DNA of 64,000 nt from Pseudisothecium myosuroides (Eukaryota > Streptophyta > Bryopsida > Hypnales > Lembophyllaceae): assembly GCA_951799445.1 (NCBI GenBank), contig OX637296.1, forward strand, positions 1,054,001 through 1,118,000, read 5' to 3'. The notes beneath the pieces were generated by a model. That model saw nothing but the letters and a program-made list of their open reading frames with translations. It ran no database searches and was not told the DNA's origin. Of the stretch, positions 29,775 to 62,854 are shown one piece after another (the first letter of the stretch is position 1; the number at the start of each line of letters is the position of its first letter). The position numbers and the translations under genes are program-made.

Positions 29775-29778
29775 TGTA

Positions 29779-30390
29779 GGGTAGTTGCAAGAAACACTTG
29801 TCCTATTTTTTGTCCCCTTGTTCTCGATCGGGTGCTTTATTTCTCATAACTTTTGCATCCCATGCTTGATCAACGTGAAATTTGAAATGAAGGTACGTAG
29901 GATAGTCAGCATCATTCCCTAATTTTTCAGATTTTTTAAAATTAATTTACTATTTTTAAACTGCCCCCGATTACATGTCTACCTTGGCCATTTTGGGGGT
30001 TTACAGTACTATTTTCGAACCAGAAATGCGAATTTGACGCCGTAAATTGGTGATGCTGGAGGTGAAGTACCTTCACATGCACCCCCCAAGAATTTTCTTC
30101 AAAAACCATTGTCTGATGTCTCCAGGTGGGGTCAAAGTGCCCTTCCTTTGCGTACGTGACATGGGAAGGGAAATTTTTTGCTTCCAAATCTACTTAGTGC
30201 ATTGTGAGCACGTGATTCTCAAGCAAAATGGCTTTTTTTTTTTCAAATTTTCTGAATTTTCTACGAATTACTAAAAATGAAAAGGTTCGGACAGCAGTTT
30301 TCTGCTATTTTCTGCTCTCAGGCTCCGACGTAGTACTCCGCAGCTGCCTGTAGCAGTCTGTAGTGATCCGTAGTATTCAGTGACGGGGCG
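29779..30390. repeat. Alpha-end subterminal region of element A
   Basis: About 600 bp after the left terminus is repeated in inverted orientation at 44050-44660, the right end of M. Shared landmarks include TTGGCCATTTTGGGGGTTTA, a GAATTACTAAAAATGAAAA stretch and TTTCTGCTATTTTCTGCTC-like text. It carries no gene. It defines the left end of the family and probably includes transposase-binding sites. Confidence 0.8.
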
Positions 30391-30584
30391 CCGTTTGGAA
30401 CACCATTACTGCTTCTGCCGTACACGTGTGAAAATCCGTTATTGGCAGTTGAACATCCCTGACCTCTTCGTGAAATCAGATCTTCCAGTGAATTGAGCGC
30501 CGCCGTTGTCGTCGACGTCGACCAGACAGGCACTTCCCGGTTCTCTGTCGACGTTGCCATGCGACGTCGACGCTCACCTTTGGT

Positions 30585-33500
30585 TTGCGGTGCCGTGGTC
30601 TCGTCATGCATCGCAGGTTGTCGGGGCCGCCGAGACCTGGCCTTTCCACGAGGCAGGCACAGGCGCTTGCAACAAACAAAGATCGACGTCGACGATGGCG
30701 AGAGAAGCAACAGCGGTACCGCGAACGACGTCGAGAGAGGCGCCAAGCGGAAGCCGACAACGTCCGAAGGCCACTGGAGGACGACAACGGCAGAAATCCA
30801 GCAACACTAAAGAGGCGGGCGGCGGAATTCTCACGAGACTTGATTTGGCACCTGGAGCGACTAGGGGACGACAATATCAGGGCTGCGGTTATGGACATAG
30901 TGTTCAAAAACCAGACCGTCAGGATGCTTCTGCCCGACTATTATCTTTCTCCTCGGGACGCCCGAGCGCAGCGCGACATCCTCCAGAACATTCGCCTGGA
31001 CTTGCAAGCGATGGAAGTGCCCCACTGCAGTGGAATGTTGGCCAAGAAGCGCTCAATTCTGGAGGCCGTGGTGTCGGATATGGACACTGATTCCACGCGA
31101 TTTTCCCGCATTCTGGGAAGACGAAGGCAGAATTTCGAAGCAGCAGTGCGCAGGCTTGAGGACGCAGGCACGGAGACTTCGTCGCGATTCAAAGTGTCGG
31201 GTAGGAAGAAGCGCGAGGGGGGGATTTCGGAGGAGATACGGGAGCTCGTACTAGGCTTCTGGACGGAAGAAACTAGGGTGTGCCCAAACCGCAAGCAAAT
31301 GCGCAAGAAACGACTGGGTCGCCTCCTATATGACAGGCACGCCGCACATCTTTTGCTAGAACCCCAGGTACGGTAGTGCAGCGTACTCGCATTCCTGGTG
31401 CTCGACTGTTGTAGCATCTTGTACTCCGTGTAATGATTTCTAGTGCCAAACGTTGGTCGTCGAATATTTCGACGGTCGAGGCAGATTTATGTGCGGAGAA
31501 TTTGGGCATGCCAGCAACCGTCACGAATTACTGTTGTGAGATGCGACACATGCGACGTTCATGTCGTCCTTAGCCTTCCCGCTTGCATTGCAAGATACAT
31601 GACAGTGAAGGGGGGTTCAGCCCAGCACTGCCTTCACCTCCGTCAGCAATCGCACTGCCTTCGTTTTGTTGACGCTGCCGTCATTGCCGTTACTGTGTAA
31701 AACAGCGCTTTAGGCCACTACGTTCGGTACTATCAGCGTTGCCTAGTGCATTGAGTGCAGGTTTCTTCCGGCTTGACGACCTCGGCGCACAGGGACGAGG
31801 ACTACAAAGTCCCCAGTGATGCTGCACAGAGTGTGCCGCTACTCCTACAAGTCACGAAGTAGGGCCACAGTCGTAGTATTTGCTCCCTACAGTGTTCATC
31901 CCCTACTACTGCTCTTTGACATGCACTGCAGAGTCCCCCCAGTGCTGCACACACTATCACGGACGTCCTGCATTCTGTGAGAAGTACTGTGGGTACTATG
32001 ACGCACCGCTATGGTGGGGTGCTTCCTGAATCCATGGTCTCCATACTGCGCGCGGACTCAACAGCGCTGTCGGCCTTCCCCTGTAGTACCCTGAAGTACC
32101 AGGCGCGGTACTCCGTGTACATCTCAGCCGTCACCCCTGGTCGGGCGGCTGCAATGAGAGGACACCCAACGATACAGAGTCACTCAGTAAGACTGCGCTG
32201 GCTACTAAGACTGCAGGAGCGTATGCGCGTAGCCCTTGCTACACCTACCGTCTGACGCAGGTGCACTTCCAGATCGCAATGCCGCCGCTTCTCCATCCAC
32301 TACGTCTCCTGTTGACTCCTTCGTTGCACAGATGCTGTCCCTGCCGTTCTACGTAGTACTCGCGGTCCTCTACTACGAGTGGTCACGCGCGCTTCTAAGA
32401 CGCAGCATACTTGTGGGACTCCTCCCACGGTGCTCATAGTCTTACGAGGGTACTACATCTACGTCTGCAGTGCTCATCAAGGATTGCGCCGTTCCACATG
32501 GTGCACTACTTCAGTTCGAGAAGTCCTTCGGCAGGTATTTCATGCGCTCTATAGTACTTTGGAGTTGTAGTCTACGCGCTCTAAAGTACTCTTCGCCACC
32601 ACTTCAGGTACTAGTAACACTGTCTGCAACTGTACTAGTACTACGAGTACTGCAACTGACAGGTGGTACTCATGTGCAGGTGGACCTCTACAAGCGTTTT
32701 CTGGAAGCTCATCCGCAGAGGCCAATTATGCTTCGTTCCTTCATCAAGCTACGCCCGTTCTTCGTCATTAGGTGTAAAGAGCGTAACGTTTGCTGTTGTC
32801 GATACCACATCCAGGTGCTGTTTCTTCTTGAGGCTCTAATGCTTTTCGGGACCCCAACCAAGGTGCACACACGATGTTCCGCTGCATTTGCCAGTGCACC
32901 GTCTGCGGTTCCCACGCTGAAGGCATCTGTCATGTCGGTGACAGCCGCTTTTCTGGTATCACGTCGATGTGGATGTCCATCTTATGCGACAAAGCCGAGG
33001 ACGCTGAGTACCACAAACTCAGGTATTTCGGGCCCTCTACTGCTTTCATTCCAATGGTCATGCTGAACTCCGTGGTCCTCACATGTTTCGCAGTGACGCT
33101 GTCTTTTTTCGCAGCCCCTGTCTGCTTAATTACGATGTCATGAAACCTATACACTGGCGCATGAAGAGGCTCGCAAATGCTGATTGCGCTGGTTTTCAGA
33201 ACTGCAGCAGGCAATGCGCTTATATGCTGAAAGTGCGTGACGGTCTCCTAAATTTTTTCAGAGACTAAGCTCCCTTACGGGGTTCAGCAGCTGCTTTCTG
33301 ACTTCACCGTTGTGCCGCACTGAACATTGCAGCTGTTTGACCAGAACATGTTCCGACTGTGGCGTTCACAAATTCTAGCTTTGCCCGCAAGAACGAATTG
33401 ATGGACCGAGACGCAACATCAAGTGGAAGAAATTCCAGTATGAAACTGTCCAAGCTGCTGATTCCAGCAACGCCCGCAAACGCATCACTGAGGTTACCTT

Positions 33501-35417
33501 AACTACTTCGTTCTCTGCTTTTATGGAGTTTTTGAGGCCAACCTTGCAACGCTTTGTTCATCATAATTTCTGCGCTCGGTGGCAAAACGACCAAGCTAAG
33601 TTAGCTCAAGATTGTTTGCCCAAAAATGCCATTCTCACCCATATAGATTTTGCTGAAAATTACACTTTCCAAGTCCAAAACGAAATCCAGTCCATGTACT
33701 ATCATTCCACGCAGGTGACCATCATGGTTCAAGTAGTGTACCGAGTGCTACTTGGAGACGAGGCGAACGGTGGGACACCGGAACTCATTCGAGAAACTCA
33801 TTACTGGATATCTGACGACAAGTCTCACGACACACTTTTTGTGCAGCACTGTCTAATGCGTCACTGGCAGTGGCTGCATTCCCACAACTGCTGGCCGAAA
33901 ACTCACATTGATTTTAGTGATGGATGCTCGGCACAATTCAAAGGTGCCCGCTCGCTCTACTTTGTTGCCAGGTTTGTGCCGTGCTTTCTTTTGATGTCCA
34001 CGATGTTCATGCGCTCACCATGTTTTCATTCGTGCTTGTACAAACATGTAACTCGCTGAGGGCCTCACAAGAACATTCCAATTCAACGTCTTTGTACCGC
34101 GAGAGCGCTGGTACTGTTGAAATGCATGTTTAAAAAATGGCCTGCATCCTGGCTGTCTTTAGGCATATGCGCTGATAGGCTCCATCACTGGCACTGCTTA
34201 TCTTCCAGGTACCCGTCCTTAACAGGAGGCTGCAAAATGCTCTGGAACTTCTTCGGATCCGGCCACGGGAAATGTGAGTGGGACGGCGCTGGCACGGTTG
34301 TCAAGAGGGCGCTTCGTTCCGAGTAACTACTGAATCCGAATCGACCACTACAAGACACACGGGATTGTGTCATGTTCCTCGATGCGACCACGGCCGGTCA
34401 AGTGCCCGTCCGCGCCGGACGCAAGCGGTAAGGACATCATCATGGACTGCGCTACCTCTTTTAGACGAAATTGTGTTTCTAGCAGCGTCTGCAGAGTTGC
34501 CTCCTACCTTCCTGTTCCTCGCACAATGAGGACCGGCAGTGAAGGCAGGCAGGTGACATTTTCTTGCGCAGAAGAAGATTGTTTTCAGTGCACTTGGCGA
34601 ACTGCTTCACGATTCAGGGTTTAGGCAGAGGTTCCTCTCATGTAGACGCTGACCGCTTTTGTTCTCTGTGTGCGTCCCCGAAACATTGTCTTCCAGGTCT
34701 TTTCGGTACTTCCATCTTATCGGCGTGGATGAGGTGGACCGGACCTCATCCCATGCATGCCAGAACATAGTGGACTCGCGGAAACTGCACTCCGTATTCG
34801 CCCCAGACAGCAGAGACCCGACCAAGCTTTTGTTACGCCATCTATCGTGCTTGTGTGGTCCTTGCTTGGAGCAGGATTTCAACAATTGCGAACAGACCGC
34901 CTACGTGGCGCCCTGGAAGGTTCACAAGATAGAGCCCATGAATGTTCAGTACGCACAAGCCATGCTGGAAGCTGAGGAGCCGGAAGACGAGGAAAACTGG
35001 GAGTACGAGGAAAATGAAGACCGCATGGCTGACATGGTCCAGCCTGGCGACAATTTTGCCATACCAGCAGAAGCAGACAACAAGGAGGGGGTTCCTTTCT
35101 ATATCCTCCAGTGTCAAGCAGCGAAGCGGTGCGTGGAAGAGGACTTCGACTACCCTTGGGGCGGGAAATTTAAACGAGGCGACTTTGTAATCAAAGGGAC
35201 TTACTATCAAAAGTGGGGCAGGTCCGGCAGTCAAAACTATGTGTTCCTGAAGGACTCCAGGCCCGCCCATATAGACGCGGACATTGTCCTTGCGTGCAAA
35301 TTCCAAATGATATCCAGAGCGCACAGAGTGAAGGGAGGAGATCCCGTGTACTCTCTACCGTCGGAAAGTGTCGACGTCGTTATTTGTGCGCTAGAGGATT
35401 ATCAAAGTTGCCACTAA
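30585..35417 (+). pseudogene. Element A transposase, DDE type, inactivated
   Basis: Five exons fit: 30585-31367, 32680-33022, 33333-33971, 34209-34427 and 34697-35417, about 900 codons, with matching phases and GT/AG edges. The first exon is very basic (RRRRWREKQQRYRERRRERR), like a bZIP basic region, and ends after CPNRKQ. Next come Cys/His clusters (CCCRYH, CICQCTVC, CSDCG), then a DDE-like core with HIDFAENYTF, DFSDGCSAQFKGAR and WNFFGSGHGKCEWDG, and a C-terminal domain of about 200 residues. It is homologous along its length to the B transposase at 52333-56281. The reading is broken by a frame change near 32860-32875, a TAG at 33376-33378 and a TAA at 34324-34326. The initiating ATG is uncertain (30606 is the first in frame). 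Confidence 0.85.
31368..32679 (+). other. Long intron rich in AGTACT palindromes
   Basis: The first intron of the A transposase (1.3 kb) holds no gene. It is dense in AGTACT, GTACTAC and TAGTACTC words, and the same words mark other non-coding parts of A and the interior of M. The nearest relative in B has an 868-bp intron at the same protein position, filled instead with a different minisatellite. Confidence 0.6.
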
Positions 35418-36136: not shown

Positions 36137-37520
36137 TCACTTCGACCTGCAGAAATCACTCCCGCAGACACAGTGAAAGGGTTCCACTTCACATGTAGAC
36201 TCAGTGAAATCCACGCCATAGTCCCACGTTAACTCCTTCCCAGCGCCAATGTCTGTGTTTGCAAAAAACGCCACCTGCGAGCACACGACAAGCGTCAACT
36301 TCCTTAAGGCTCAGCACAACATCAAATAGCCAAGACAACCGCGGGACCTGCATATTTGAGGGAGCTGCGTCACTCACATGGTACAGCGTCGGGAGTGTCT
36401 CGTAACCTATCCACACGGGCATGTCCATGACATTGCCGTCTGCACATCTGCAACACAAGCAGGAGTCACTTATCGCAGCCAAGTTTGTGCAATCATCTTC
36501 TTAGAAGCATAGGTGGACACAGCGCACTTACCTGTGATTCATCCAGTGCGCCAAGTTTGTGCACTCCAAGGCATCGATGCACAGCAAGTCGGAGTCTATT
36601 TTGGAGAACTCAGACTGCCAATCCGTGTCCAATAGAATTAAGTGCACCGCGCCCTTCCCGCAGCGGAATAACTCTGCGTTTGTCACCACCTCGCCCGCAT
36701 ACTCAAATAGAAATTGACCCTACCTAAGCGATTCCAGAGTTCTGATGCCCCATCCCTTAGCATCACCGACGAAGAAGACCTGCTTCCGTAAAGAGCATCA
36801 GCAGTTGCATAAATCGAACGCCCCAAAAGGCCCAAGTCACGGCATGAGGTCAGGCATAAGCGTGCTAGGAAATACTTCAAATCTCTTAGTGAGTCCTGTC
36901 TGAACAACTCTGTTACCGCAGTCCGGACCACAAGCGCACGTACGCCCGCACTCCTGAATGTACGGTCGCTGAACTTGACCTCCGCAAGCCCCACTCCAGT
37001 AGCCTTGGCATAGGAACTCCCCCCCGCAATGCACCACTTGTGCACTACCGCCATCTCTGCATTCCAGAAACTGCAGAGCAACGTCACGCGGAAGTGAGTT
37101 AGCCTGTGTACATGGCAGCGTCATGGAAAAGGCAAATGAATGGAAAAGGAATGAAGGAAACCATACCTGTTCGACATACCGCTGCTGAAGGAAGCCTTCG
37201 TCGGTATATGCGCAGCCGGCAGTTACGGAACAGCATTTGCATTCATCCTTGCCATCCACGCAAGATGCTCTGCAGAGGCAGACCGAGTCCGCGGACACAG
37301 GTGCCCTGCATATTCCCCAAGAAACTGTAGAGTGCAAGACAGGATTCCGGATGTATGTGTATGACGAGACGTCCCAGACTGGGGCTTCCCCTACGCCACC
37401 AGGTTCGTAGCACCGAATTGGAATGCTCTCACGACCTTGAGAGCAGTTCAAGAGTATGCAGTCTTGTGGCGGTAATCGTAGACAAAAAAAATATAACTTC
37501 ACAACTGTGCTTAGTGGCAA
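36137..37520 (-). pseudogene. SUV39-type SET-domain histone methyltransferase carried by element A
   Basis: This family methylates histone H3, usually at lysine 9. Read leftward, the first part has GRESIPIRCYEPGG and a Cys-rich pre-SET region (VCLCRASC, ECKCC, ECGRTCACGPDCGNRVVQ). The exon 36755-36532 encodes GWGIRTLESLR, then an in-frame TAG (36720-36722), then QFLFEYAGEVVTNAELF and CIDALECTNLAHWMNHR. Exon 36447-36378 and exon 36274-36137 complete it with VAFFANTDIGAGKELTWDYG and a post-SET tail, FHCVCGSDFCRSK. Phases across the last three exons agree. The usual NHSC motif reads NHRC. Pre-SET, SET and post-SET are all present, so the gene was complete before the stop arose. The exon 2/3 junction and the true start, to the right of 37520, are unresolved. 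Confidence 0.85.
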
Positions 37521-39867
37521 AGGTCAATGACAACATTCATGAGGACTGACTCCACGTCCGACAGAGAACCGCAAGCAAAAACCGATGGAGAGGGGTTTGG
37601 AGAGGATTGTTACCAGAACTTTACAGCAATGTCAGGGAACTGCAATTACAAGTTGGCCTCGCAACGTCCGAGGAAAATACCGCATTCATCAGACCTTTCA
37701 GCTCAGAAAACTACTTGCCCAAGACGGCCTACTTCCACAGTCATCATGCACGGAGGGCCCCTAAAGCAAGCGGACCCTTCAACGGCTCCCCTAACAACAA
37801 GGGGGGGTGAGCTCCCAATTCGTCACTTGGGACTCATAGTCTTCTTTTTCCTTTGATTTTGCAATTTAAGTCATAATTATACACAAAAAACCCTAAAAAG
37901 AGTGTAAAACCAGAATGGGCATGTTACATACCAATATGCCCTTTGGTCCTAAATAGCCTTTTCTTCTTAGAATAGCCCTAAAACCCACTTGTAAATAGGT
38001 TAGAACCATAGAAGTAGTGGGAACTAGAAGGTTTGAGGGTTCTTACCCAAAATAGCCTAAAATCACTATGCAGATGACCGGGCTTGGCTAAATTGGTCTA
38101 AGGGAAGTCTAAGGAGATTCTTAGATAGATTCCCTGAGAGAGGTTTCAGTTTCCCCATTCCATCGACGAATAGTAGAAACCCCAATTGTTAGCTTGCAGA
38201 TGTCACTTTCTCATGACAGGCCAGTGGAGGAATCTACGGTCACCGGATGGTGCTCTTGGGTCAGAACCATACCGGCAAGTCAAAAGCGAAATTCATTTGC
38301 CAAGATTCCCCCGTATGCGAAAGATTTCCTGACCGCCGGTAAACCAACGGAGCTATCTTTTTGCCCTCCGTATCAAGACATGCAAGATCAAGATGTGAAC
38401 TTTCAAATCTCTTGGGAAATCCCAGGAGAGGTTCCCCAAGAAGTTTCGGAATTTTCTGGATTAAAGAAATACTCCTTCCGGACGGTCAACCGCCTAAAAC
38501 CACGATGGGAAATTCACGATAATTACCCAGGTGGCGGTAAAATCTCACTAAAAATTAGGTTAGCTTTTTTTATGCTAATAACGCGTCCCGACAAGTTTCA
38601 TGATGTTTTGATAGCGGGAGACGGCCGAATCACCGACATTCCTTCAAATTATCCACGTGGCGAGATTTACGTGGAGTTGACCGGCGCCCCGGGTGCACAC
38701 AAAGTTGGAACGAAGTCAATGAAGGGTCTTTTCTTACTCCCTAAGACCTCCTAGACCACCCTGGCTAGTCACCTTTGTCAGAAAAGGTAACCTCCAAAAA
38801 GTAGATTTTTACCTCTTTTACTGACTCTAGTTGGCGATAGCTTACGGTGGAATTTTGGCGTTGGAATAGGGGGTAGGGAGATCTTTACACTAAAAATGGC
38901 CTTCTGAAGCCAATGGCGCAATCGGTTTTTGATTTGGAGTTGATCTCCAATAGTTAGAGATTTGGACCAGCGTTAACCTCAAAATAGGTGAAAATCCTAA
39001 AAGATAAGGATGAAAATCCAAGTTGATAGGGTTACCTAGGTTAAAAGAGGGGAGGTGAGGGCCTTGGAAAACCTATAAAAGGGCCCTCATTTCTCTTCAA
39101 AGCCACCCCCCATTCTTGTTTTGGGGTCCGTTGGGTCCACATGGTTGTAGATATTTTTAGCAATTGTTAGCCAAAAAACCCTATCGGTGTTTTTTGGGGC
39201 ATCTTTTGGCCCCCATTGTTGTATTCCTTTTAAGCTCTCAAGTTCTTGGAAGTATCGTAAGGTTGTAGATACAAGTCGTATGTTTCTTTCAAACGTTGCA
39301 CGTAACCGGGAAGTTGGGAGTTTTTGTGAGAGTTGTGAGTCTTTTATACTAATCCTAAAGCACCCCACACCGTACCTTGGCGATGCCGCTTTGGGGGGCC
39401 TTTAGCACGAGTCGTAGAGAGTGCTAATTGCGAGGGTATGCTAGCTCGTTTCGTTACACTAACCATTGGAAGCAAGTAAGGGTGGTCATGTCTAACAAGT
39501 TGTTGTGATAATAGCGGTTTCGCTCCCGACGGCGAAGCTTTGAACTTGGTGATTTATCCAAATCCCAAATTGTGTGTTAAAGAAAACCGTATTGACTGCG
39601 GAGCTCTGGCCTTAGGAGTTTAGGAAATCCCAAAATGGGTATTAAAACTCAAAACACGGCGAAGCTTTGAACCCCCCAACCGTCCGATGTCAAGGTTTAG
39701 TTCCCAAAACACCTTGGGAAAGAGTTAAGGTTTAGCCTCCAAAATTCCAACTAGTTAGGCCTCACATGGTGGGGGTAGGAATGGAACTTCCAAGTCATAA
39801 GTCCTTAGTGTAAAAATTCAGTTTATATTTATTTGTGTGGGGAACCAAGGTTGCATTGCCCGGGCCC

Positions 39868-40060
39868 TCCAAGGCCAGCAGCCAAGGCCGACCCCAGCAG
39901 CCAAAGGCCCAGCCCCGGCAGCCAAGGCCTGACCCCGGCAGCAGGGCCAGACCGCGGCGGCCAAGGCCAAACCCCTGCAAGGCCGACCCCAGCAGCCAAG
40001 GCCCGACCCCGGCAACAGGGCCAGACCCCAGCAGCAGGACTAGACCCCGGCGGCAGGCTC
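39868..40060. repeat. GC-rich minisatellite
   Basis: Imperfect copies of an approximately 20-bp unit, CAGCCAAGGCCCGACCCCGG, run for about 190 bp. It produces long proline/arginine or glycine/alanine frames on both strands, which are artefacts. It stands out from the AT-rich surroundings. Confidence 0.8.
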
Positions 40061-41130
40061 CTTCGGGGAAAAAATTCGGATTTTTTCTTAAATTAGAAGA
40101 AGAGGATATAAAGGAAAACAAGAGTCCGAACCAAGTCCAACAGGGGAAAAAGAAAAGTAGAAGTAGGCCAAGGGAGTAGATGAAGGAGAGGAAGTAGTTA
40201 GGATTTGAAGAAGAGTAGAAGCAAATTTAATTAAGCCATTAGGAATAGAAGGAAAGAACGTTAATAGTTAGGGTTTGGAGAGAAGTAGAAGCAATTGTAA
40301 TGGAGTCATTAGGAGTGGAAGGAGAGAAGGTTGAGTAAGGTGGATGGAGTAGAAGAAAGATCCTCACACCTCTACAAACTCACACAAATCCTATCAACTC
40401 CCTACACACTCACTTCACACATTCCACATCGCTAGCAAGAGCAAAAAACCTTGTGAAGGACATCCAAGAAGAAGGTTTAGTAGGAGAGAAGATGAATAGG
40501 AAGAAGATTAAAGGAATCTCAAGAACCATTGTGAGCCATCAATCGCTCCTTACGTAAGAAGGGAAAGCAAATGCGTCATATGCATTATTGGGGGTAGTTG
40601 AGAGGCATTAAGGGTGCATAGAGGAATAGTTTGGAAGGGAAAGAAGGAGGTAGAAGGGAAAGATAGAGGTACTAGATAAGGAAGTCAAGGAGCAAATTCC
40701 ATAATACAACGGATCACGTTTCCACAAAATTTCAAGGACAAAATGGCACGCGAGGGGTACCTCAGCGACTTGATCCGTGATCTTCAAGACGAGGTGGGCC
40801 ACTAACTCCCTCCTTACATTCTAAAACCTCCAAAAACTAGTATTAATTGAGAGGGCCGAGAGCTAGGGTAGGCAAGAAGCAAGGTCAGGTTAGAATTATG
40901 TCTAGAATCTTATAGTAGAGGTCTAGAAGTTTCCAAAAAACTAAAATACACCCAAATCCGAGCCAAAACAAAGAAGTTATGAGTAAATGAAGTTAGGGAG
41001 TCATGTTGGATGAAATTTAGCAAAATTCATCCAAGAGGAACAAGGAATAGTATTTGAAAAGATAAAGTGACTAGGAATCCAACCGTGAAATTAGAAGTTA
41101 GTTTTGGAATTAGGGCTAGCCATAATTGGC

Positions 41131-41640
41131 GGATGAAGTTTGAAGGACCGATGAGCGGTCAAACTTCATCCATGGATAACTCTTGATAAGAACCCCCAAA
41201 TCTAATGTGGTTAGTCAAAGTAGAAAGCTAAAATCAAGATCTCCTCGAAACAAGTCTTAAGTTCTAAGAATAGTACATTAATAACCACACTTAAGATCCT
41301 TAAGTAAGATTAGAAGGCGGATTAGGGACTTTTAAGATTAAGTTTAGGTTAAATATAGATTTAGAACGTCTTAGAGCAAGGTTAGGGTAACCCAAAACTA
41401 AACCCAGCTTAAGGAAATACCTAAACCCCAAGCAGTTAAGAAGGGATGAAGTCCGGAACAAGTAATGGATGAACCCTAGAAGATTTCATCCATTTGAGTC
41501 AAGACTTGGTAATTAGGTTAACCTTAGGGGTTCAGGCTTGTAGCTCAAATCCCAAGTCAGATCGAAATCCGGGGTCCGTAGAAAAGCATGGATGAAGTTT
41601 GAGGAACCGAGTAGCGGTCAAACTTCATCCGTCCATAACT
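41131..41640. repeat. Two copies of a 50-bp hairpin repeat
   Basis: The word GGATGAAGTTTGA, a short loop with an AGCGG motif, and TCAAACTTCATCC occurs at 41131-41172 and again at 41590-41631. Each copy can fold into a 13-bp stem and each is followed by CATAACT-like text. The spacing is about 459 bp. Confidence 0.75.
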
Positions 41641-43558
41641 TTCTCTAAGAGAGTCCAAATCAAACAAGCTTCATACTTTTGGAAATGGCATGAAGTACTC
41701 TTCCATTTAGGATATAGAAGTTTAGACTAAGATTCACTCTTCTCCCAACCACCAAGCCCCCTTGGGCTTGGATTCAGACTTAGCAATTACAGCAATTCCA
41801 ATTAGGGTTTTGTTTTGTTTTCTTCATTTTTTGAATTAACGAGTTTTAGGAGTATAGAAAAGATCCATTGCTTGGAAGGCACAATGGATTGGCGCTAGAC
41901 ACCCATAGATTGAGTCAGAACGGTTGTTTAACCAAGAGCTTGGTTGTGCTCGTTCGTTTACCAAGGGTGGGTAAACGAGCGCTCATAGGTTGCCGTGCAC
42001 CAAATCTCTTCGGGGGCGATCCTCTAGACCACCAGAAACGCACACTGACGTCGACCACATTGCAAGCAAGGGTGATCACTTCTTCGTTACCTTGGACTTC
42101 CTAGGTGCGGGACCGGCGTCAGCGAGCTCCGAACCTGCAGCTGTTCCCGACTTCGAAGCATGTCGGGAAGACTGCGTGGATTGCTTCCCAGCGGTCGTCG
42201 GAGAGCCAATTTCCTTCGAAGACCTTCTTGATTTACACTTACCTGAATGCTCGACCGCCTCCTTCTTCTTAGCAGGCGACTGAGCTTCTTGATCCGCCTA
42301 CAGAGGACTGGTGTCCTCGTCTACGGGAGCTCCAAAGACTGCTCCCCGTCTGGCAGTCTTCTTTTCTGAAAAAACACAGTCCAGTAGGCCCAACTCAATA
42401 CATCGACGAGATCATTGGAAACAGCGTCAAGAGGGTTAGTGGAAAGGAGGTCACATACGCTGCGTGGACGCGGCGCCTTGGCTTGCAGATCTGCTGCGGT
42501 AAACCAGAGGACTCATTAGTTGTGGTGCTGAAAAGATGACGGGGCTATCTCCTTCGTGCCCGTCTTTGTGGGCCTCCTCGTCTAAGCTTTCCGTGTAAGG
42601 GTCAGTGGCAGCAGGTACGACATGAGGAACACTTGCGGGCGCTCGGCAATGTTTTGCTGCATGTCCTGATGCTGCCTCCGCTAAAGTCCCATCGATCTTT
42701 CGCAGTGGAAACCATGCAAGCATTTAAGGAGGTCAGCTATGCCATGTGGCGGAGCCATCAAGGAAACACTGCAAGAAGTACTCTGGGCAACGAATACGCA
42801 CACACCTGCATGTCATCCTGTACTGGAACGGCATTGAGTACGGCCTGCTCTTTGGCCGTCAGCACGTCGTCCGGATTTGCAGCAGCACTTTCCAATGGCG
42901 AACCTTGCAACGCCGATTTTTGCCAATTCTGCGGGAGTGGATGGCTGCAAGGTGTTTTCTCATTCGCTGCGGGCTGCAGGAATCCCGGCGCCGCGTGAGG
43001 CACCGTCGGTATCTCCACGATGGAGAGAGCTTTAGACTGCGTGGATTGTGGCGTTCGAGTTGCCTCCTTGGCGTAAATGTCGGACGCCCAAGGACCCGAT
43101 GCCCGGCGCCCGGCAGGGAAAGTTCTAGCTTCGTCGCCATCCGTGAGGCACTTTGATTACGTGCTTCCGGATATGGAAGCTGTGTGTGCCAAGTGCGCAT
43201 GATTTGGAGAACCTGCGTCACAGACAAAGCGACACAATGATGTGAACCTGCAACTCTTCAGTGCAAACGTAGAAGCATATCAGAGTTTTTGGAAAGAAGA
43301 GGACAATTGTAGTCACTCGTGGACACTGTTCACCCTAAACCCGGGTAAACATGAGGTAAAATGAGCCAAAGTCAACATCCTATGGTTAGTTTTGATGGCT
43401 GGTTTTAACTAGGACTTAGATGAACTGGCTGGTTTTAATGATGGCTACTTGGATGAGCTGTGCACGTAGTGAATGCGCAGCGCCACTCCCTGACACAAAC
43501 CAACTGCTTTTTTGTCTTACAGTTTCCACTCAGGTCCGCTGACGTTGTCCGTCAATTT

Positions 43559-43672
43559 TCTTGCTCACGTTTCTCGCTCACGTTCTTGCTCACGTTTCTC
43601 GCTCACGTTCTCGCTCACGTTTCTCGCTCACGTTTCTCGCTCACAGGTCCCGCTCACGTTGTCTCGCTCACA
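43559..43672. repeat. CTCGCTCACGTTT minisatellite near the left end of B
   Basis: About nine imperfect copies of a 12-13 bp unit (CTCGCTCACGTTT) lie 216-330 bp inside the B terminus. Short tandem repeats just inside the ends of large DNA transposons often bind the transposase, but that role is only a guess here. I saw no matching array at the right end. Confidence 0.8.
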
Positions 43673-43806
43673 TGTTTTGATGTTTTGCTCCGGCGGTTTT
43701 AGACTAGGCTGATGAGATGTGCTGGATTTCTCAGGCGCGTGGGTACGTACTAGTTTTGGAGCTTGAGCAGTTTAGGGTGCGCTTGCAGGTTACCACCTCG
43801 GTGTCT

Positions 43807-44791
43807 GATTTGGGTGCTTTGTTCTTGATGTTCCTAGCTTGAAGGTTTAGGGGCGATCGCTAGGGTTTAAGGTCTAGTTTGATCGTGTCTGTATCAGTTC
43901 CAGTGTGCCGCATTTTCGGGTAGTTGCAAGAAACACTTCACGTTTTTCCGTCAAAACTGCGTTTTTTGGCCATAGGACTGGCAGTACTACGCAATACTAC
44001 CAACACTGTGTGTTAGCAGCACCCCGACAGATCTGAACCGTCGATCTTAGGCGCCTGCAGATCTAGACCGTCGATTCAGTACTATGTTGTACTATGCAGT
44101 ACTACCGACTACTACGGAGTACTACAGAAACCACTAGGAGCAAAAAATAGCAGAAAAGGGGTCTATGGAGTTTTTCATTTTTAGTAATTCAAAAAAAATT
44201 CAAAAAAATTTCATAAAAAAAGATTTGCACTCACATTGCACAAAAAAATTCATGAAAGAAAATCTTTCCCTCTTTGTAGCTTTTGCGCAAAGGAAGGTCA
44301 CTTTGACCCTATGTGTGCAATCGACATGTTGCTATTTTCATAAAAACTCATCGTCAGCCCTTGTAATGTTAGTAGACCTCCAACATGTCCAATTTGTGGC
44401 TTCAAATTCGCATTTTTGGATCAAAAATAGGACTAAAAACCCCCAAAATGGCCAAGGTAGACATCCAATTGGGGGCAGGTTAAAAATAGTAAACTAATTT
44501 TTAAAAAATTTTAAAAATTACTCAAGGTGTAAAACTTTATTATATACCTTCATTCCAAATTTCATGCCAAATGGACAAATAATGCAAAAGTTATGAGCAA
44601 AAAGCCAATTTTTAAGGGCAAGGGGACAAGAAATAGGACAAGTGTTTCTTGCAATCACCCTTTCACGGTGTACAATTGCCGGATTTGGGTGCTTTGTTAC
44701 TGATGTTCCTAGCTTGAAAGTTTGCTGGCGATCGCTAGGTTCAAGGTCTACTTTGATCGTCTCTGTATCAGTTCCAGTGCACCGCATTTTC
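43807..44791. repeat. 110-bp direct duplication flanking element M
   Basis: Copies at 43807-43917 and 44682-44791 share GATTTGGGTGCTTTGTT, a GGCGATCGCTAGG block and TCTGTATCAGTTCCAGTG. They predate M, which inserted at the end of the first copy; the text CATTTTCACGGTGTACAATT is restored when M is removed. This sits in the 5' region of B's RING gene. Confidence 0.8.
43918..44660. mobile_element. Element M: 743-bp non-autonomous derivative of the A family
   Basis: The left end has GGGTAGTTGCAAGAAACACT followed by the beta-end sequence of A (ACGTTTTT, GGCCATAGGACTG). The right end inverted reads GGGTGATTGCAAGAAACACT followed by the alpha-end sequence over about 600 bp. It is flanked by TTTC on both sides (43914-43917 and 44661-44664). 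It therefore consists of the two ends of A joined, in opposite orientation to A, with the interior lost. No coding sequence is present. Relative to B it is a later insertion. Confidence 0.9.
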
Positions 44792-44891
44792 ACGGTGTAC
44801 AATTTATGTTTTAGCTGTGATTTGCATCGGTTTGCTTTTTGCATTGAAGTTTAGCAGTTAGGTAAGTCTGTAGATAAGTGGCTTGCATACA

Positions 44892-47800
44892 ATGGAGTCA
44901 AAGGTGGTGCGGGGAGAGTCCGCGAAACTATCGAGAGAGAGGAGGGGATCATTTGACAAGAAACAAAAGTCCGTAAAAGCCCCTCAGTCTGTTCCAGAGT
45001 TGCTTCTAGAGTTAGCTTCCCTTAAACTCCAGACAACTGAATTTTTTGTGAAGGAGAGAGGCTTATGTGGACGTGGTCTAAACCCAAAGCTCTTCGCTGA
45101 TATAGCTTGTGTGACGCCTAAGAAAATCGAGGAAGTCTGGGGAAAGTGTTCAACGTTTAAGACTAGCAACACTATTCTGAGTCCACAAAGTAGGGTAGAC
45201 CTTCTCCAGTTGTGTGCTAAAATTTATGGGAAGGTTGAAATTACAAATAATGAGTTCATGGCTTGGGTGGTAAAAGGCCACATTGCGGAATTGATGGGTT
45301 TTGATGTAAATTGGGCGTCCGCTGCTGCATCGACAACCCTACTTCTTGTCAGCCGATTAGAGGGGGAATTGTTGAAGAGAGATCTTACTTCGGAAGAGGC
45401 TGCTGCCCTGAAGCATTTGGCGCCCTATGCTATTGCGAAGCCTTCCGTTTCCCACTCGAAGGCCAATGCAAGGACCAGTGGTTTGGAATCACAACCGGTG
45501 GAAACGAAGTTTAGGTCTGGGAAATTCAAGCCTGGTGCCAGTGTCAGCTTATCTCCCGTTTTGGTAGCAGAGATTGCCGAAGCAGAAGAGGTTCTGGTTG
45601 TTGAAGCCGAGCTGCTAACAAGAACAGAGAGCAAAGAGAGTTTTTTGAATGCTTCAAAGACTGGCATTGCAGAGAGAATCATCGGATTCAAATTTGGGAT
45701 GGATGATAGAAATGCCGATGCAGAGGATGCAGCCGAGAATGTCAAGGTGATGGAGGAAGGGTTGAAGCAAAACGGGCTTCTAATCTCGGCATTGGAGAGC
45801 AGTGTGAGTAATTTCTTGAGTATAGATTGGTCTCAGGGTTTAGATCTGTACTGCTACACATTGGATTTAGGGGCTAGTTTGCTGTGGTTGGGATTAGGGT
45901 TTAGGGTGGACAGTCTTTTAGTGACCTGGTTTGGGTTTATTGTTTAGGAATTGTGGTGCACAATTCTCACATACAGTGCTCTGGCAGGGATTAGGGTTTG
46001 GGATTTGGGGTGCACAAGCTGGCTTACAGAATGGGTTTAGGATTTTGGCAAAATTTGGGCTGGATAAGACTTGTTCTATTTTTTGACTTTGAACATTTTT
46101 GCTTTCTCTTCTAACAGGTGCAGCAATTCAAAGACAACCTCGATGAAGGCAATGATCAATTTTTTGATGCATTACAGAAGTTAGAGAAGTTGAGGGTAGA
46201 GCGAGAAGGGCAATCTAAGAAGTTGGAGTTTGCTAACTTCACTTTAGAAGATTGTCAAAGAAGGGCCAAGAGAGCAGGAGAACATTATCATGATGCTGGC
46301 CTAGACATGTGGAAGTTTGAGTGTGACAGTGCAGTGGTGAGGAGAGAGTTGGAAGAGGTGCGACGATACAAGGATGTAGTTGCAGATCAGATCCAAATGA
46401 TGCAGCAGCAGGGAGGAGTGGCTTGTTGGCCAAAACCTTGCTTGCATCCTCATTTGCCGGATGAGGCTGAAACTATGTTTGAATTGGAAGCTTGTTCATT
46501 TTGTAACCGGTGGTACACATCGTTTGATGTTGTTATGGCAAGCTGCAGGCATTTGTATCATCCATTTTGCATTGCCAAGGTTGTAGAGACTCAAAATGCC
46601 TGTGTGATTTGTAAGATGACTTTTCATCCTGCATGGTTGAGGTCGTTTGGTTTCCGCTCACGGGAATCAGATGTGGAAGATGCCGCTGCTAAATCATCGT
46701 TGGCAAGGTCCATGGAGGAGTTGAGTGATACTTTGAAGGACAGTTTTGGGTTGCCAATCCCTGAATGTAAGTGAATCCCTGAACTTATAGGCTGAACTAA
46801 TTTGGTGCTTTGAGTTAAGTGCTTTCAGGTTATGTTTTGATTTAGTCACGACACTATTACTACTTCTGAGTTCCTGCTGAAGTGCTTTTGAGATATTTCT
46901 GAGGTATGGACATGCTGACACAGCGCACTGAAATGGGTGTACAATTGGAACCCTGAAGCATGCTTTGTTGCTTCCAATTTATATTTCCGATAGTTTTTGA
47001 TTGTTGATGTTTGTCATTCTCGCCTTTGTTCCTTAGGTGCTGGAATGTGGTTGCGAGTGTACCTGGCTTGTTGGAGTACTCATCAGGTCCTGCTTGGGTG
47101 CTGGAACGTGGTTACAAGTGTACTTGGCTGCTAGAATATTCATGAGCTTCTGCAACAAATGCTGGAATGTGGTTGTGAGTGTACTTCGGTATTGGAATAC
47201 TCACTTATTTCTACAGGGGGCTTGGAATACTCTTGCATTTGTGCTTTGGTACTAGATACTCTTGCGTTTATACTTGGATGCTGGATACTCATGTGTTTAG
47301 GCTTGGTTTTGTGCTTGGCTGCTGGTTCTTCTCAGGCAGGTGCTTCGGTTTGTGCTTGGATGCTGGATACTCACGTGACGAAGGCTTGGTTTTGTGCTTG
47401 GCTGATGGTTCTTCTCAGACAGGTGCTTTGGTTTGTGCTTGGCTGCTGGTTTGTGCTTGGATGCTGGATACGATAGTGCTTAGGCTTGGTTTTGTGCTTG
47501 GCTACTGGTTCTTCTCGTGTAGGTGCTTTGGTTTGTGCTTGGATGCTGGATACGATAGTGCTTAGGCTTGGTTTTGTGCTTGGCTGCTAGTTCTTCTCCT
47601 GTAGGTGCTTTGATTTGTGCTTGGATGCTGGATACGATAGTGCTTCTGCTTGGGTCGTGGATACTCACTTTTCTGTGCTTGGGTGTGGATATAATGGCGT
47701 GCTTTTGTTGTGTGTGCTAGGTACTCACTTGTTCTGTGCTTGGGTGCTGGATGCTCATGCGGTTGTACGAGGGTTCTGGAATACTCATGGGCATTGTTTT

Positions 47801-48848
47801 TGGATACTGAAATGGGTTCTGATGGGTTCTAATAAGGATACACACAAAGTTGGGGTGATGGAATTAGTAGTTTCGAGTTAGTGTACGTGCTTAGAGCGGT
47901 TTAGTTCTTTGGATGTGCATAATTGGTCCCCGGCTTTTGTGGTTGCTTGGAGATATTAATACAGGTTGTTTAGGCACTTCTTTGGAACTACAAACTGACT
48001 GATTATGTCTTCTGTTTGTAGGGTCACAATCTAGGGGGAAACAATCGGATAAGGGATCATCCGCATCAATCTTTGAAGTGCAGCCTGGAGTCCACTGCAT
48101 TTCAGGTAGCAGATTGAAGGATGCCACACCATCACAGGGACAGAAGAAGCAGCCCAAAACTGATGCAAGTCCTAGTGGTGACAGTGTTGATGAGGTAGAC
48201 TCCCCAGCAAAGCAGGCAGGAGGTGGTACAAGTGACGATGCAATAAATCTGGACTTAGAACCTGTTTCAACAATATTGGAACCTCCGTGCTTTGATGCAG
48301 TACTGTGCCCTGGTGAAAAGGCGGGTGAGTTTGTGTTTTAGGGCAACTGATTTGGGTGAGTTTGGATTTGGGGGCAACTGATTCCCCAAGGAGAGCAATG
48401 TTTTAAATTCTAGTGTTTGTACCTACAAGTGTCTGATGAGCTCCTGTTGGCTTTCTCAGCGCAAATTTGCACCCCACTGGACCCTGTATCCCCAGCCATG
48501 GAGGGTATGCTGATTGCAAGGAGTCCAGCGGAGGCGAGTCCAGCAGAGGCGAGCCCAACAAGTCCAGCAGAGGGTACAAGTGGTAGAAAATATTCTTTTA
48601 GTGTGAAGAGGGCTTGTGATCCATGTGTAGATGATTCTAGCATGAGAAAGAAGGCTATCAAATCATGTGCATCCAACCAGAGTAGTGATGTGTACAAAGC
48701 CACAAGATTGTCTACACGGTCTCCTTCAAAGAAAGGAAGTTCTCGTAGGCATGAATGTAGGAAAGGAGACTTAGAGCCAGAAATTATTGCTTTACAGGTT
48801 GAAATAGTACCAAAGGTGGTAACTAGGAGCAGGGTAAAGAACAATTGA
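44892..48848 (+). CDS. Element B RING-finger/coiled-coil protein, intact
   Basis: Four exons, 44892-45803, 46118-46766, 48022-48324 and 48460-48848, join with correct phases into 751 codons ending in TGA (48846-48848). The N-terminus is basic. Residues about 40-180 form a conserved helical region (FADIACVTPKKIEEVW, FMAWVVKGHIAELMGFDVNW) shared with element A. Exon 2 has a coiled coil and then a zinc finger, CSFCNRWYTSFD, CRHLYHPFC, CVICKMTFHPAWL. The pattern C-x2-C, C-x-H-x2-H-x2-C, C-x2-C resembles a RING finger. The tail is acidic then basic and serine-rich, with APAEAS-like repeats of AEASP. It converges with the transposase gene of B. Intron 1 has TTTAGGG words and intron 2 a minisatellite. 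Function is unknown; a ubiquitin-ligase or transposition partner is inferred. Confidence 0.85.
47036..47780 (+). repeat. GTGCTTGG-TGCTGG minisatellite in RING-gene intron
   Basis: Higher-order copies of units such as GTGCTTGGATGCTGGATACT and GCTTGGTTTTGTGCTTGGC fill most of intron 2 of the B RING gene. Open frames here on both strands are low-complexity and are not genes. A related repeat occurs in the long intron of the convergent transposase gene. Confidence 0.8.
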
Positions 48849-48849
48849 G

Positions 48850-50150
48850 GCAATTGGTCACTTGGACATGTAAATTTTTTGCTCATTTAGTGCAACTGCT
48901 CTTTGTTACACATGATTAAATTTGTTGTGTGAGATGCATAAATTATTTATCAATTTGTGGTGCAAGAGTTGATATCTGATACGTTGTGAAAGAAGTTGCG
49001 ATTGTTACTTCTTGTGCTGTGATTCTAGTGCATTGAGAACTTGGTGAGAAAAACCTGTGATTGAGTGCCCAAAGTTGATGCACCATCAGCTGTTGATTCC
49101 TGCTGATTTCATAACACTAATTTAATAACGCTGATTTAATATTGCGAAGACAAGCACTTAGGATTCCAGTTCCAGCGTCGGGGCGCTTCCAGTTTGTGAA
49201 TCATCTCTTTCTTAGACAAGCACTTGGGATTCCAATTCCCTAATTCAGTGCGATTCCAGTTCTGACGAACTTTGGCGTGGAGAGTGCTAAACACAATTTT
49301 GGCAATTCCAGTTCTGAATAACTTTGGTGATTTTGAAGTTAAAGATTCCTTGTGAACCATATATATATGTGGTAAACATTTCCATCAAATCTCCATTATG
49401 AATTTTTAAGGGATCAAGCGAATTAAAAATTTGAATAAACTACTTCTATTTTTTGGGTAAGAGGCAATAACACAAAGAATAGGTGGTAAATATGATATTG
49501 CAATGAAATGTAGGTATGGTTTCAAAATGCAAAAGGCTTGTATACCTACATTCTCGCCATTTAGATCAAGACATAACATATACATAACATAAGGATGCTT
49601 AATGAATTTGCGGCTTTTTCAATCCTAAATCTATTCTAAATTGATTTTTAAATTAATTTCTAATGTAATTTGGCTCAATTCTTTGAATTATAAGGTTTAG
49701 GAGCGGACTAGATGTTCAAAGATAATTCAATTATAGAATTGAGGAGACCCTCAAAGTAGGTAAAGGTCCTAAATCAACCAATTTTATTGACCTTTTTAAT
49801 GACATGAAGAAATAATGTGTGCAAATATAATTTAATTATAGAATTGACAAGACCCTCAAAGTAGGTAAAGGTTCTAAATCAACTAATTTGAGATAAGTCT
49901 TTCTATTAATGACATGAAGAAGCTTCTATATTGAAACTTAATTTAGTTTTAGTTGAATTCAAAAGACCAAGAAAGCCCTAGGTAGAGATCCAAAACAAAC
50001 TGAGTTAGTTAAACTTGACTTTCCTAAATCCTAAAGCCAGTACCAACTGATCATGCCTGTGATTAGCAGGACGCGACCTTCTAATAATCCCATATTGTTT
50101 GGTAATGGCTAGCAGACTAACTATAAGAGGGCTTTCTTGTCATACTCAGA
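48850..50150. other. Non-coding spacer of element B, left part
   Basis: AT-rich DNA after the RING gene stop. A partial duplication with AGACAAGCACTTRGGATTCC lies at about 49150-49230, and two similar blocks with AAAGTAGGTAAAGGT lie near 49755 and 49859. No gene is visible. Confidence 0.5.
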
Positions 50151-50154
50151 CAAC

Positions 50155-50223
50155 CCCGGAGACCAAAGGGACCGGCCTCTCACGCTCTGCGAGTGTGGGG
50201 GGAAGCTCGTATTGGTCTCCGGG
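50155..50223. repeat. Perfect 12-bp stem hairpin
   Basis: CCCGGAGACCAA (50155-50166) and TTGGTCTCCGGG (50212-50223) are exact inverse copies separated by 45 bases that contain a shorter internal pairing (CTC/GAG). It is GC-rich in an AT-rich setting. It could be a folded transcript end or the remnant of an insertion; I cannot tell which. Confidence 0.6.
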
Positions 50224-50241
50224 ACCCCCCCCCTCTTTTGT

Positions 50242-51070
50242 TTCAATTTGATTTTGATTGTGGTCCATGATTCCTAAAATTACACATTACTATAAATCGT
50301 GAATAGGTTTTGAACATTAAATAAAATGGGATTGTTGGTTCCAATTTCCCATGATCCCTAGAATTCCACACTAGTGTAAATCATGAATTGGTGTTGTTAA
50401 TTTTGTGAAATAAAATGGGAATGTGAAGTGTCTTTGGCTCCAATTTCCCATGATCCCTAAAATTCCACACTAGTGTAAATCATGAATTGGTGTTGTTAAT
50501 TTTGTGAAATAAAATGGGAATGTGAAGTGTCTTTGGCTCCAATTTCCCATGATCCCTAGAATTCCACACTAGTGTAAATCATGAATTGGTGTTGTTAATT
50601 TTGTGAAATAAAATGGGAATGTGAAGTGTCTTTGGCTCCAATTTCCCATGATCCCTAGAATTCCACACTAGTGTAAATCATGAATTGGTGTTGTTAATTT
50701 TGTGAAATAAAATGGGAATGTGAAGTGTCTTTGGCTCCAATTTCCCATGATCCCTAGAATTCCACACTAGTGTAAATCATGAATTGGTGTTGTTAATTTT
50801 GTGAAATAAAATGGGAATGTGAAGTGTCTTTGGCTCCAATTTCCCATGATCCCTAGAATTCCACACTAGTGTAAATCATGAATTGGTGTTGTTAATTTTG
50901 TGAAATAAAATGGGAATGTGAAGTGTCTTTGGCTCCAATTTCCCATGATCCCTAAAATTACACACTAGTGTAAATCATGAATTGGTGTTGTTCAACAAAA
51001 TGGGAATAAAATGTGTTCTGATGGCTCCAATTGCCATGTTATATGAAAATGGCCCATGATCCCTAAAATT
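50242..51070. repeat. 99-bp tandem satellite in element B
   Basis: Six near-identical 99-bp units start at 50341, 50440, 50539, 50638, 50737 and 50836 (landmark CCAATTTCCCATGATCCCTA). Diverged copies lie before (about 50242) and after (50935 to about 51070). The central copies are nearly identical and the outer ones have decayed, as in arrays kept alike by unequal exchange. It lies between the two converging genes of B. Confidence 0.92.
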
Positions 51071-52332
51071 ACACAGTAATTGAGACCATCAAGTTGTAGA
51101 AGAAAAAGGATTTGATAAGTGTCCAAACTAATTCATCCCACTTAGTGGTGGGACTAAAATGGAATTCATACTTGCCCAACTATTTGATACGGGCATTTAG
51201 TGGTGGCACAAAATGAAAGTGATAAGTGCCCAAATTAATTGACCCATTTAGTGGTGGGCAAAAAATGATATTGATTGGAATCAGTTAGGATAAAAGATTA
51301 CCAACAATATCACATATAGATTGAAATAATTAGTATAATGGTTGATTTCAAAGGTGGTAAAAGTAAATTGAAGTCTTCTTCATAATGTCTATGCATATGT
51401 CAAATTATGTAATTGCACAAGTGATCATGAATTTAGAATCTACTTGTCATAAAAAAAATTCATGATTTTTAATCACACAAAATTAATAATTTAGGTATGG
51501 AACATGAAAAAGCATTACCAAAATTTTAGACCTTCTAATTCTATATGTATTTGACAATTTTTTAAATTCATGCCTAAGATTGAGTATATTTGAGAGTCAT
51601 TTTTAAAAGTCTTAAATTATATATATCAAGCTTTACAAAGCACCGCTTTGCATTCCACCCTCAACCCAAAAATCAATTTTTTGTTTGGGACAACCTAAAT
51701 TTCTGATGATACAAAATGGCAGTTTTGGGAGTCTCTGCCTTAGGATCCACCTAAACAATTCAAATTCCAAGAGCATGGCTAATTGGATCTTTCTTACTTG
51801 GATCTTTCTTAATTGATACTGACATCTGAAATTCTGAATCGCTAATAAAGAGGTGCAAAGCAGCACTCTTCGACCAAAAATCAGAGCCAGCTTTCCTTGA
51901 TGGGCTGTGGCATCCAATGAGCTTGTACCGAAAATCCAAGCCAGCTTTTAGACTGGCTGTGGCATCCGATGAGCCCTGAAGGAATTCTGACAGCATATAC
52001 ATACGCATGAAAACCTCAGCAGGACTACCCCAAAACGATATAAATGATACTGATTTACTGCGGTGCTCTTATGGCTGTTTAAATTCCAGTTCTCACATGG
52101 ACGTGACTAGAAAGCAACCCCAAATGCTTGGACCCATGTCTTAGTTCTCAGTCTTTGGTGTTCAATGCAGTACTAGTCATTGAAAGTAAGATCAATTTAC
52201 AGAAATCAAAATCAGCATTCAGGCATTGAACCAAGTCTTTGATGTACAAGCGTTGGAAAATTGAATCGTATTGACTGAATCGTATTGAATAAAAATACGG
52301 TGAGAAGGGCAGATTACAAGGACATTGAACTT
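51071..52332. other. Non-coding spacer of element B, right part
   Basis: AT-rich sequence leading to the end of the transposase gene. There is no coding signal apart from short chance frames. The last part may hold the 3' untranslated region of the transposase gene on the minus strand. Confidence 0.45.
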
Positions 52333-53870
52333 CTAGTCCAGTAGCACAGCATCCCTCAGGGCCTCATCAATAATCTCTTTGACATCTATCTTCAACTCAA
52401 ATCCTGATAAACAACTCTTGATAGGATGTGCTATAGGTGGCAAACTAAATTTGGAACAAAGAACAATGTGGCTATAAACTGTACTTGGTTCTCTGTCATT
52501 CCTCAGCAAATAAGTTCGACTCCCTTCTTTGAGCCTCTCATACCAAATTCCATTGAAAACAACATCCCCTGGGACATAGGTGTTCTCATCCGGGTCAGTG
52601 AAAGCTTCTTCAACAATGTACGTTGCCTTGACAACGATCATGAGCCACCATGGCTCCTCTTCCAGTGGTGCACCCACAGCAACATTGTCCCCCACGCACA
52701 AGCCATCCGCAATCCACTCTCCATCAGTGCCAGCTTCAATCTGCTCGTTTGCATCATAAAGTCTCCGAGCTTGAAATGGAGCTTTGGGTCTCAACCTGAA
52801 TAAAGTGAACTCTGGCACATGGTCAATTTGATAGCATGTATGCTGGGTCTCATACCCTAAACAAACATAGCAAAAACAAGACAAGTGCCGATATTGGATA
52901 AGTGTTGGGTCTCTAGCAGTCACCGAACGGCATTGATGGTTAGACATGCTGCTCGGCACCCGTTCAGCTTGCCTGGTGTCACTCCTATCCACACTACCCA
53001 GTCCAGTTTTGGAAATCAGCCAAAAAAATTTATGTGTCTCACACCGTGCACCTCGGGGCCCTGCATGCACCTTCACAGCCTGCTCATTTAAGAACTGAAC
53101 AATCTCAGCAGCACTCTGTAGCTTCCTCCCATCTGCTTTCAACTGCTCCGTACGGATCTCTCTCTTCAGCAAGGCACCTGCACCATCTACTTCCCCCTTC
53201 CCATGCCCAGAACCAAAATAATTCCAAGACATTTGGCAACCATCTATCAATGTGGCACTGCTAGTCAACGTAGGATATCTACTAATAAAATACCAAGCTC
53301 GTGCACTCTTAAATTGTCCACTACATCCATCTGACCAGACTATGTGGTTATTGGGAGTGAAACCTTGGCCCTTCACATGTTCCCAATTCAACATCAGACA
53401 ATGCTGGACATAAAGAGAATCATGACTTCTATCATCAGATACATAATAATGAATCTCTTTCAACAAAAGAGGCTCATTGGTATCTTTGCTCCAAGCAGGA
53501 TTCAACTTGTAAGTAATATGAACCAAGATGGTGACCTGATCATTATGCCAATGCATACTTTGTATCTCATTTTGAATCTTAAAAGTATAATTTTCTGAAA
53601 AATCAATGCAAGAGATTAAAGTGCTAGGCAAAACAGAGGTAAACAACTCTTTAAATTGATAATCCTGCCAAGATGCTACATAATTATGCAACACAAATGC
53701 TTGCAACTTAGGTTTGAGGTAATTGATCAACTCACGGGGAGTCGTTTCTTTATATTCCAAGGTTGAAGCTTTCCTTGGATTTCCTTCCTCTGTTGTCCCC
53801 ACCACCTTGTATCCGATGCACTTCCACTTCACGATCTGCTGAGATGTCATTTCTTGAGGACAGATATGAA

Positions 53871-62850: not shown

Positions 62851-62854
62851 TGTA

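Follow-up and report, generated by a model that had tools for sequence, protein, structure and literature searches.

A SUVR4-type SET-domain gene carried by Sola-like DNA transposons in the moss Pseudisothecium myosuroides

SET-domain genes are already known as transposon cargo. In Phytophthora, a gene for a SET histone lysine methyltransferase is present in the DNA transposons HarbingerS and MuDR (Kojima and Jurka, 2014, cited in PMC12730594; this and the other PMC articles cited here are drawn on through excerpts), and the fungal TET/JBP transposons described in the same source likewise carry an enzyme of an epigenetic mark, although these enzymes act on DNA methylation and their hosts and transposases are different. 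In primate SETMAR, a SET methyltransferase is also linked with a DNA transposon, Hsmar1, which landed beside a host SET gene (PMC6326780) and is fused to it. Sola elements are long and variable, have 4-bp target duplications and a DDD transposase, and are present in the moss Physcomitrella (PMC10741241); Sola2 elements can carry the accessory gene Fanzor1 (PMC3627910). Here, we describe a SET gene within element A, a DNA transposon located in a window of 64,000 nucleotides of the moss Pseudisothecium myosuroides (assembly GCA_951799445.1, contig OX637296.1, positions 1,054,001 to 1,118,000, forward strand; all coordinates below refer to the window). New at this locus is a Sola-like plant element with a SUVR4-type SET gene and a RING gene. 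The evidence supports the SET gene as resident cargo of the transposon, because it lies within the element ends, recurs in the copies, occupies a fixed slot, follows one transposase clade and co-diverges with the transposase.

The SET gene in the window is located on the minus strand (37463-36137) and comprises five exons:

37167-37463, minus strand: SET exon 1 as found, N-terminal part of pre-SET
36876-37070, minus strand: SET exon 2, pre-SET cysteines
36532-36779, minus strand: SET exon 3, SET core up to MNH, containing a premature stop
36378-36447, minus strand: SET exon 4, RCADGN... segment
36137-36274, minus strand: SET exon 5, ELTWDYG and post-SET cysteines

A sequence-only reading of positions 36137-37520 had proposed a SUV39-type enzyme with pre-SET, SET and post-SET motifs, spliced in phase. 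The motifs are present on the minus strand and the five exons join in phase, with GT to AG borders at all four introns; a single premature in-frame stop in exon 3, which the two closest copies lack, had been overlooked. No start exon was found for the window gene. With X in place of the stop, the joined protein scores 52.5 bits against PF00856 (cut-off 22.4), whereas its score against PF05033 (Pre-SET), 26.9 bits, falls just below the cut-off of 29.1; the relative L006 reaches 41.6 bits with PF05033.

Element A extends on both sides of the SET gene and contains a transposase and a RING-like gene:

29779-62850, plus strand: element A, DNA transposon; homology to the C1 and C5 copies starts and stops at these ends
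29779-29799, plus strand: left terminal inverted repeat, GGGTAGTTGCAAGAAACACTT, identical to the right end
62830-62850, minus strand: right terminal inverted repeat, reverse complement of GGGTAGTTGCAAGAAACACTT
30492-31376: N-terminal open reading frame of the A transposase
33433-35408, plus strand: transposase of A, in homology-backed pieces 33433-33978, 34201-34440 and 34692-35408, with a premature stop in the window copy
35007-35414, plus strand: C-terminal domain of the A transposase, BAH-like predicted fold
57810-58676, minus strand: RING-like gene of A, zf-RING_2 at 19.1 bits (below cut-off), with 89-91% homologues in the C1 and C5 copies

Excluding nested insertions, element A is approximately 14.4 kb long, with inverted ends of 21 bp flanked by the target duplication TGTA (29775-29778 and 62851-62854). 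The boundaries of A, of a nested element B and of two short relatives were mapped. Two further copies of A were located on C1 and C5; their alignment with the window spans 29779 to 62850 and is not contiguous beyond these positions. Both copies have both ends, their own target duplications (AATG and CACA, respectively) and a SET gene; copies of A without SET, together with a host-only SET pseudogene with its own boundaries in the window, were thus not found. The C1 copy is 93.5% identical to the window across the 8 kb that contain the transposase and SET genes (373 transitions and 129 transversions), and the remaining segments of the two copies are 88-95% identical. The placement of SET between the transposase and RING genes of A, as proposed from the sequence, was right; however, the right end of A is at 62850 and its RING gene lies beyond the nested B, while B contributes the RING gene at 46115-46774. 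In the remaining SET-bearing lineages, the evidence of mobility is near-identical DNA found at separate places, such as L004 (C10) and L005 (C7), which share 98.3% identity over 3.5 kb.

A 4-bp target duplication was observed in all six insertions examined, which comprise the three of A, B (ACCC) and the two short relatives (TTTC and AACC). PIF-Harbinger elements duplicate 3 bp and MuDR elements about 9 bp. Pfam returned no match of transposase type for the element transposases, including Harbinger-type and MULE, so that neither the duplications nor the profiles place the elements in HarbingerS, PIF-Harbinger or MuDR. The Phytophthora elements were compared by description; the elements described here differ from them in the plant genome, the SUVR4-type SET gene and the shared RING gene. 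The Phytophthora cases (cited in PMC12730594) do not support the view that this combination, which the sequence-only reading could not place in a described family, has no described counterpart. The 4-bp duplications are shared with the Sola superfamily, the likeness being one of features. The transposase of A has a predicted integrase-type fold, Sola-like features and possibly a BAH-like end; a homologue from Ceratodon purpureus is 39% identical. In contrast to SETMAR, the SET gene here is not fused to the transposase; it forms its own gene on the opposite strand within the element and moves together with it. A literature search, with subscription journals mostly outside its reach, found no report of a SET gene in a Sola-like or moss transposon.

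For a search of the 388-Mb genome, of which 380.5 Mb are in 11 large contigs, the queries were the SET protein, the RING protein and two transposases. Neighbouring matches were merged, yielding 61 SET clusters and 106 transposase clusters (one merged C7 transposase cluster contains two different transposases). Scoring covered 126 of 144 SET candidates, 80 of 519 and 87 of 327 transposase candidates, and 135 of 162 RING candidates; because only part of the transposase candidates were scored, unpaired SET loci may have unscored transposases. A transposase was located within 30 kb of 38 of the 61 SET clusters, tail-to-tail in 36 of these 38, compared with a mean of 2.0 and a maximum of 7 in 1000 trials of random placement on the same chromosomes. 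Neighbours downstream of each transposase and on the opposite strand were counted within 30 kb for SET and 35 kb for RING: both genes are present at 28 transposase clusters, RING only at 42, SET only at 9 and neither at 27. Wherever both are present, SET lies between the transposase and RING genes (28/28). These counts and this order identify the transposase with RING as the wider arrangement, with SET occupying a slot in some members of the family. Four presumed host genes are among the 61 SET clusters, namely two loci that we label SUVH-like and two SUVR loci on C1. C11 (16.9 Mb) represents approximately 4% of the genome, but 20/61 SET clusters and 20/106 transposase clusters are located on it. 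This may be a sex chromosome or an otherwise repeat-rich chromosome.

In the transposase tree (66 rows), 25 SET-bearing loci and 17 SET-less loci were sampled from the 106 clusters. The 25 sampled SET-bearing transposases and one external protein form one clade (support 100/99), and the 17 SET-less rows of this genome lie outside it, corresponding to a single change of state among the sampled loci; transposases of A-like or group II-like type without SET within 30 kb (e.g. C9:25822269, C11:6514114, C11:11163062 and C11:15712987) are not in this tree, nor are P0035, P0038, P0042 and P0044 or external proteins with 200 or fewer aligned columns. SET and transposase distances are correlated (Mantel r 0.933, p 0.0001, 21 loci); within single groups of the SET copies, r is 0.875 in group I (p 0.0018) and 0.948 in group III (p 0.0002). 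The check put forward in the sequence-only reading, whether the transposon SET copies form one clade travelling with the transposase, has a positive outcome in that the sampled SET-bearing transposases are monophyletic and the two genes co-diversify.

The SET tree is based on 45 fetched loci, which represent the 61 clusters (L034 yielded no row). C2_46.9 was left out of both SET trees and EXT_P0005 of the one with more plant proteins; external rows with fewer than 75 columns, or fewer than 90 in the larger-plant-set tree, were not entered, and four SET rows were masked or patched where the alignment entered an intron, both here and for the distance and substitution-rate analyses. The transposon copies lie on a branch with plant SUVRs (98/92), separate from the SUVH-like and SETMAR rows (98/92 and 100/99). 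The presumed host SUVRs and those of other plants form a clade (100/98) that excludes the transposon copies, and group I is placed closer to the host SUVRs than are groups II and III (97/90). External proteins also fall with the transposon groups: P0001 in group III and P0054, P0055, P0056, P0058, P0059 and P0060 in group I, while P0057 sits beside group II (97/78). This grouping suggests that the transposon SET type may occur in other species as well.

The closest named relatives of the enzyme are plant SUVR4 and SUVR4-like proteins, followed by SETMAR, which narrows the proposed SUV39-type identity; by sequence, the enzyme is in the SUVR4 branch of the plant SUVR proteins. Pre-SET, SET and post-SET together with the NHRC and ELTWDYG motifs are common to the transposon SET genes and SUVR4. 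In contrast to plant SUVR4, the gene here is transposon-encoded and present in many copies. SUVR4 is an active methyltransferase of histone H3 lysine 9 (H3K9) that further methylates H3K9me1, and it binds ubiquitin through its WIYLD domain (PMC4260354, PMC7218100). A genome search found no WIYLD match near the transposon copies, a weak test in that the host SUVR C1_49.5 also has none and the N-terminus of the transposon proteins is unmapped; the single partial match in the genome lies approximately 4 kb from the host SUVR locus C1_47.6. The transposon SET genes are thus likely to have no WIYLD domain.

The ratio of nonsynonymous to synonymous substitution rates (dN/dS) of SET is 0.10-0.19 in 7 of 20 pairs, including deep group I and group III pairs; pairs among the three A copies account for two of the seven, based on 109-110 codons. 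For the transposase, values were obtained for 9 of 11 pairs, three deeper pairs ranging from 0.12 to 0.23 and six pairs from 0.31 to 0.58; the latter include the A trio (0.58 and 0.41), whose values are above its SET values. Among 39 transposon SET rows of this genome, 21 have no stop across at least 170 of 180 columns. The Asn and the His of NHRC are each retained in 38/39 rows, the final Tyr of TWDY in 39/39, and the cysteines are nearly invariant. In the comparisons that are deep enough to tell, these substitution patterns indicate that SET is under purifying selection.

We propose, with a probability of roughly 0.55, that a Sola-like lineage captured a host SUVR4-type gene and kept it as a working part, which would methylate chromatin at element copies or insertion sites. 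According to this proposal, a cut-and-paste lineage with a transposase and a convergent RING gene would have acquired the host histone lysine methyltransferase gene and retained it since then. The SET protein probably has lysine methyltransferase activity, with H3K9 as the likeliest target in view of its SUVR4 relatives. Its action on chromatin at copies or insertion sites is more conjectural; it might put new insertions in a quiet, tolerated state with less harm to the host, possibly in concert with the predicted BAH-like domain of the transposase. The roles put forward in the sequence-only reading, equally conjectural, were that such an element might limit its own damage, silence rival elements or remodel the site of its insertion. 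Because the SET gene was kept through long evolution, the element seems to gain from having a writer of chromatin marks of its own.

Several observations weigh against this reading. All three copies of A look damaged: the transposase has stops in the window, C1 and C5 copies, and SET has stops in the window and, at a different place, in the C1 copy, with changed motif residues in the C5 copy. Family A itself looks dead, and the case for function is carried by the wider clade. In that clade, 18 of the 39 SET rows contain a stop or cover fewer than 170 of 180 columns. Two of the low SET dN/dS values, in deep pairs, rest on near-saturated dS (1.85 and 2.40), 8 of the 20 pairs show 0.31-1.04 and are mostly young, and 5 have no value owing to saturated synonymous sites, one of these being the host pair. 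For some transposases of A-like or group II-like type, no SET match lies within 30 kb; one of them is a C9 A-like transposase that is 91% alike. A single transposon SET clade, which would correspond to one capture instead of two, gives a P value in the approximately unbiased (AU) test of 0.317, or 0.309 with more plant proteins, and is not rejected; one capture is the simpler reading, and group I may stem from a second capture. In SET enzymes, the Tyr of EYxGE is important for catalysis. At this position, the 11 group I rows (e.g. L006, L024, L029 and L049) all have Leu, Met, Ser or Val, while the other transposon rows keep Tyr; the activity of group I is therefore less sure, and its deep pairs nonetheless show low dN/dS. 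Among the plant relatives, SUVR1 and SUVR2 were inactive in vitro in the assays described (PMC4260354).

The same enzyme could serve the element in other ways. SET might steer integration, marking preferred target chromatin at which the transposase would land via its predicted BAH-like domain; we regard this alternative as rather unlikely. Some BAH domains read histone marks. The C-terminus of the A transposase is modelled as BAH-like, with complexes with methylated histone peptides among its best structural matches, and the density of SET and transposase clusters on C11 would also fit such steering; a Foldseek search with the C-terminal domain alone placed MazF-type barrels first, with no E value below 0.098. 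Somewhat differently, SET might counter host silencing as a competitor of the host's SUVR proteins, or its substrate might be a protein other than a histone, for example the transposase or a silencing factor. The likely lack of WIYLD (given the weak test above) may mean an action different from that of SUVR4, group I does not retain the Tyr of EYxGE, and transposon TET/JBP enzymes have been argued to remove silencing marks (PMC12730594). However, the NHRC and TWDY residues are conserved, which is perhaps needless for pure competition, and we consider this explanation rather unlikely as well. A broader version of the proposal, in which SET writes, the BAH-like transposase reads and RING may give ubiquitin signals, would form a self-contained chromatin system that sets silencing or insertion-site choice; such a system is an idea that we hold with little confidence.

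That host SET genes or pseudogenes lie by chance beside transposons, or are functionless passengers, would agree with the broken state of the A copies and with the remaining genes of A, which have no Pfam match (for ten other open reading frames of A and B, Pfam returned nothing but one weak GLTT repeat match). Such an origin is highly improbable in view of the fixed slot and orientation, the single transposase clade, the co-divergence and the low dN/dS in deep pairs, and only approximately 2 of the 61 co-locations would be expected by chance. A host SET pseudogene placed by chance beside a transposon was rejected on the grounds of slot, clade, co-divergence, dN/dS and random placement.

H3K9 methylation is a principal means by which plant hosts combat transposons. 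Here, an old transposon clade has kept a writer of its own, probably for the H3K9 mark, in constant gene order and with purifying selection acting on it. This makes the question of why transposons methylate histones testable within one genome, because SET-bearing and SET-less relatives share a transposase family and a RING gene. Taken with the oomycete cases, the clade suggests that unrelated transposons have captured SET genes repeatedly.

The other mapped features of the window are the following:

37807-41994, strand not given: later insertion into A, missing at that site in the C1 and C5 copies, where the alignment breaks and then resumes
43343-57805, minus strand: element B, nested in A, with ends GGGTAAACATGAGG/CCTCATGTTTACCC and target duplication ACCC
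52333-53967: transposase of B
46115-46774: RING gene of B
43918-44660, strand not given: short element nested in B, with A-type ends and target duplication TTTC, without SET

Each of the three A copies has an insertion of one unclassified repeat type at differing sites (window 37807-41994; C1 copy L041+L042, 12846-17749; C5 copy L046+L043, 12184-16783), 67-70% alike in the longest aligned pieces. A near-perfect hairpin at 57249-57583, with 166-bp arms of 94% identity, consists of a short repeat, of which the C5 copy of A contains several further instances. An end of A at 44661, from the first repeat search, was rejected, since this end is that of the short A-type element located in B. Although this short element has its own 4-bp duplication, it is bracketed by a direct repeat of 110 bp (89%; 43807-43917 and 44682-44791). 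The genome search with the SET protein gave no match in B, a relative of A. Transposases 98% identical to that of B were observed on C217, C49, C6, C10 and C105, suggesting that the B family has been recently active.
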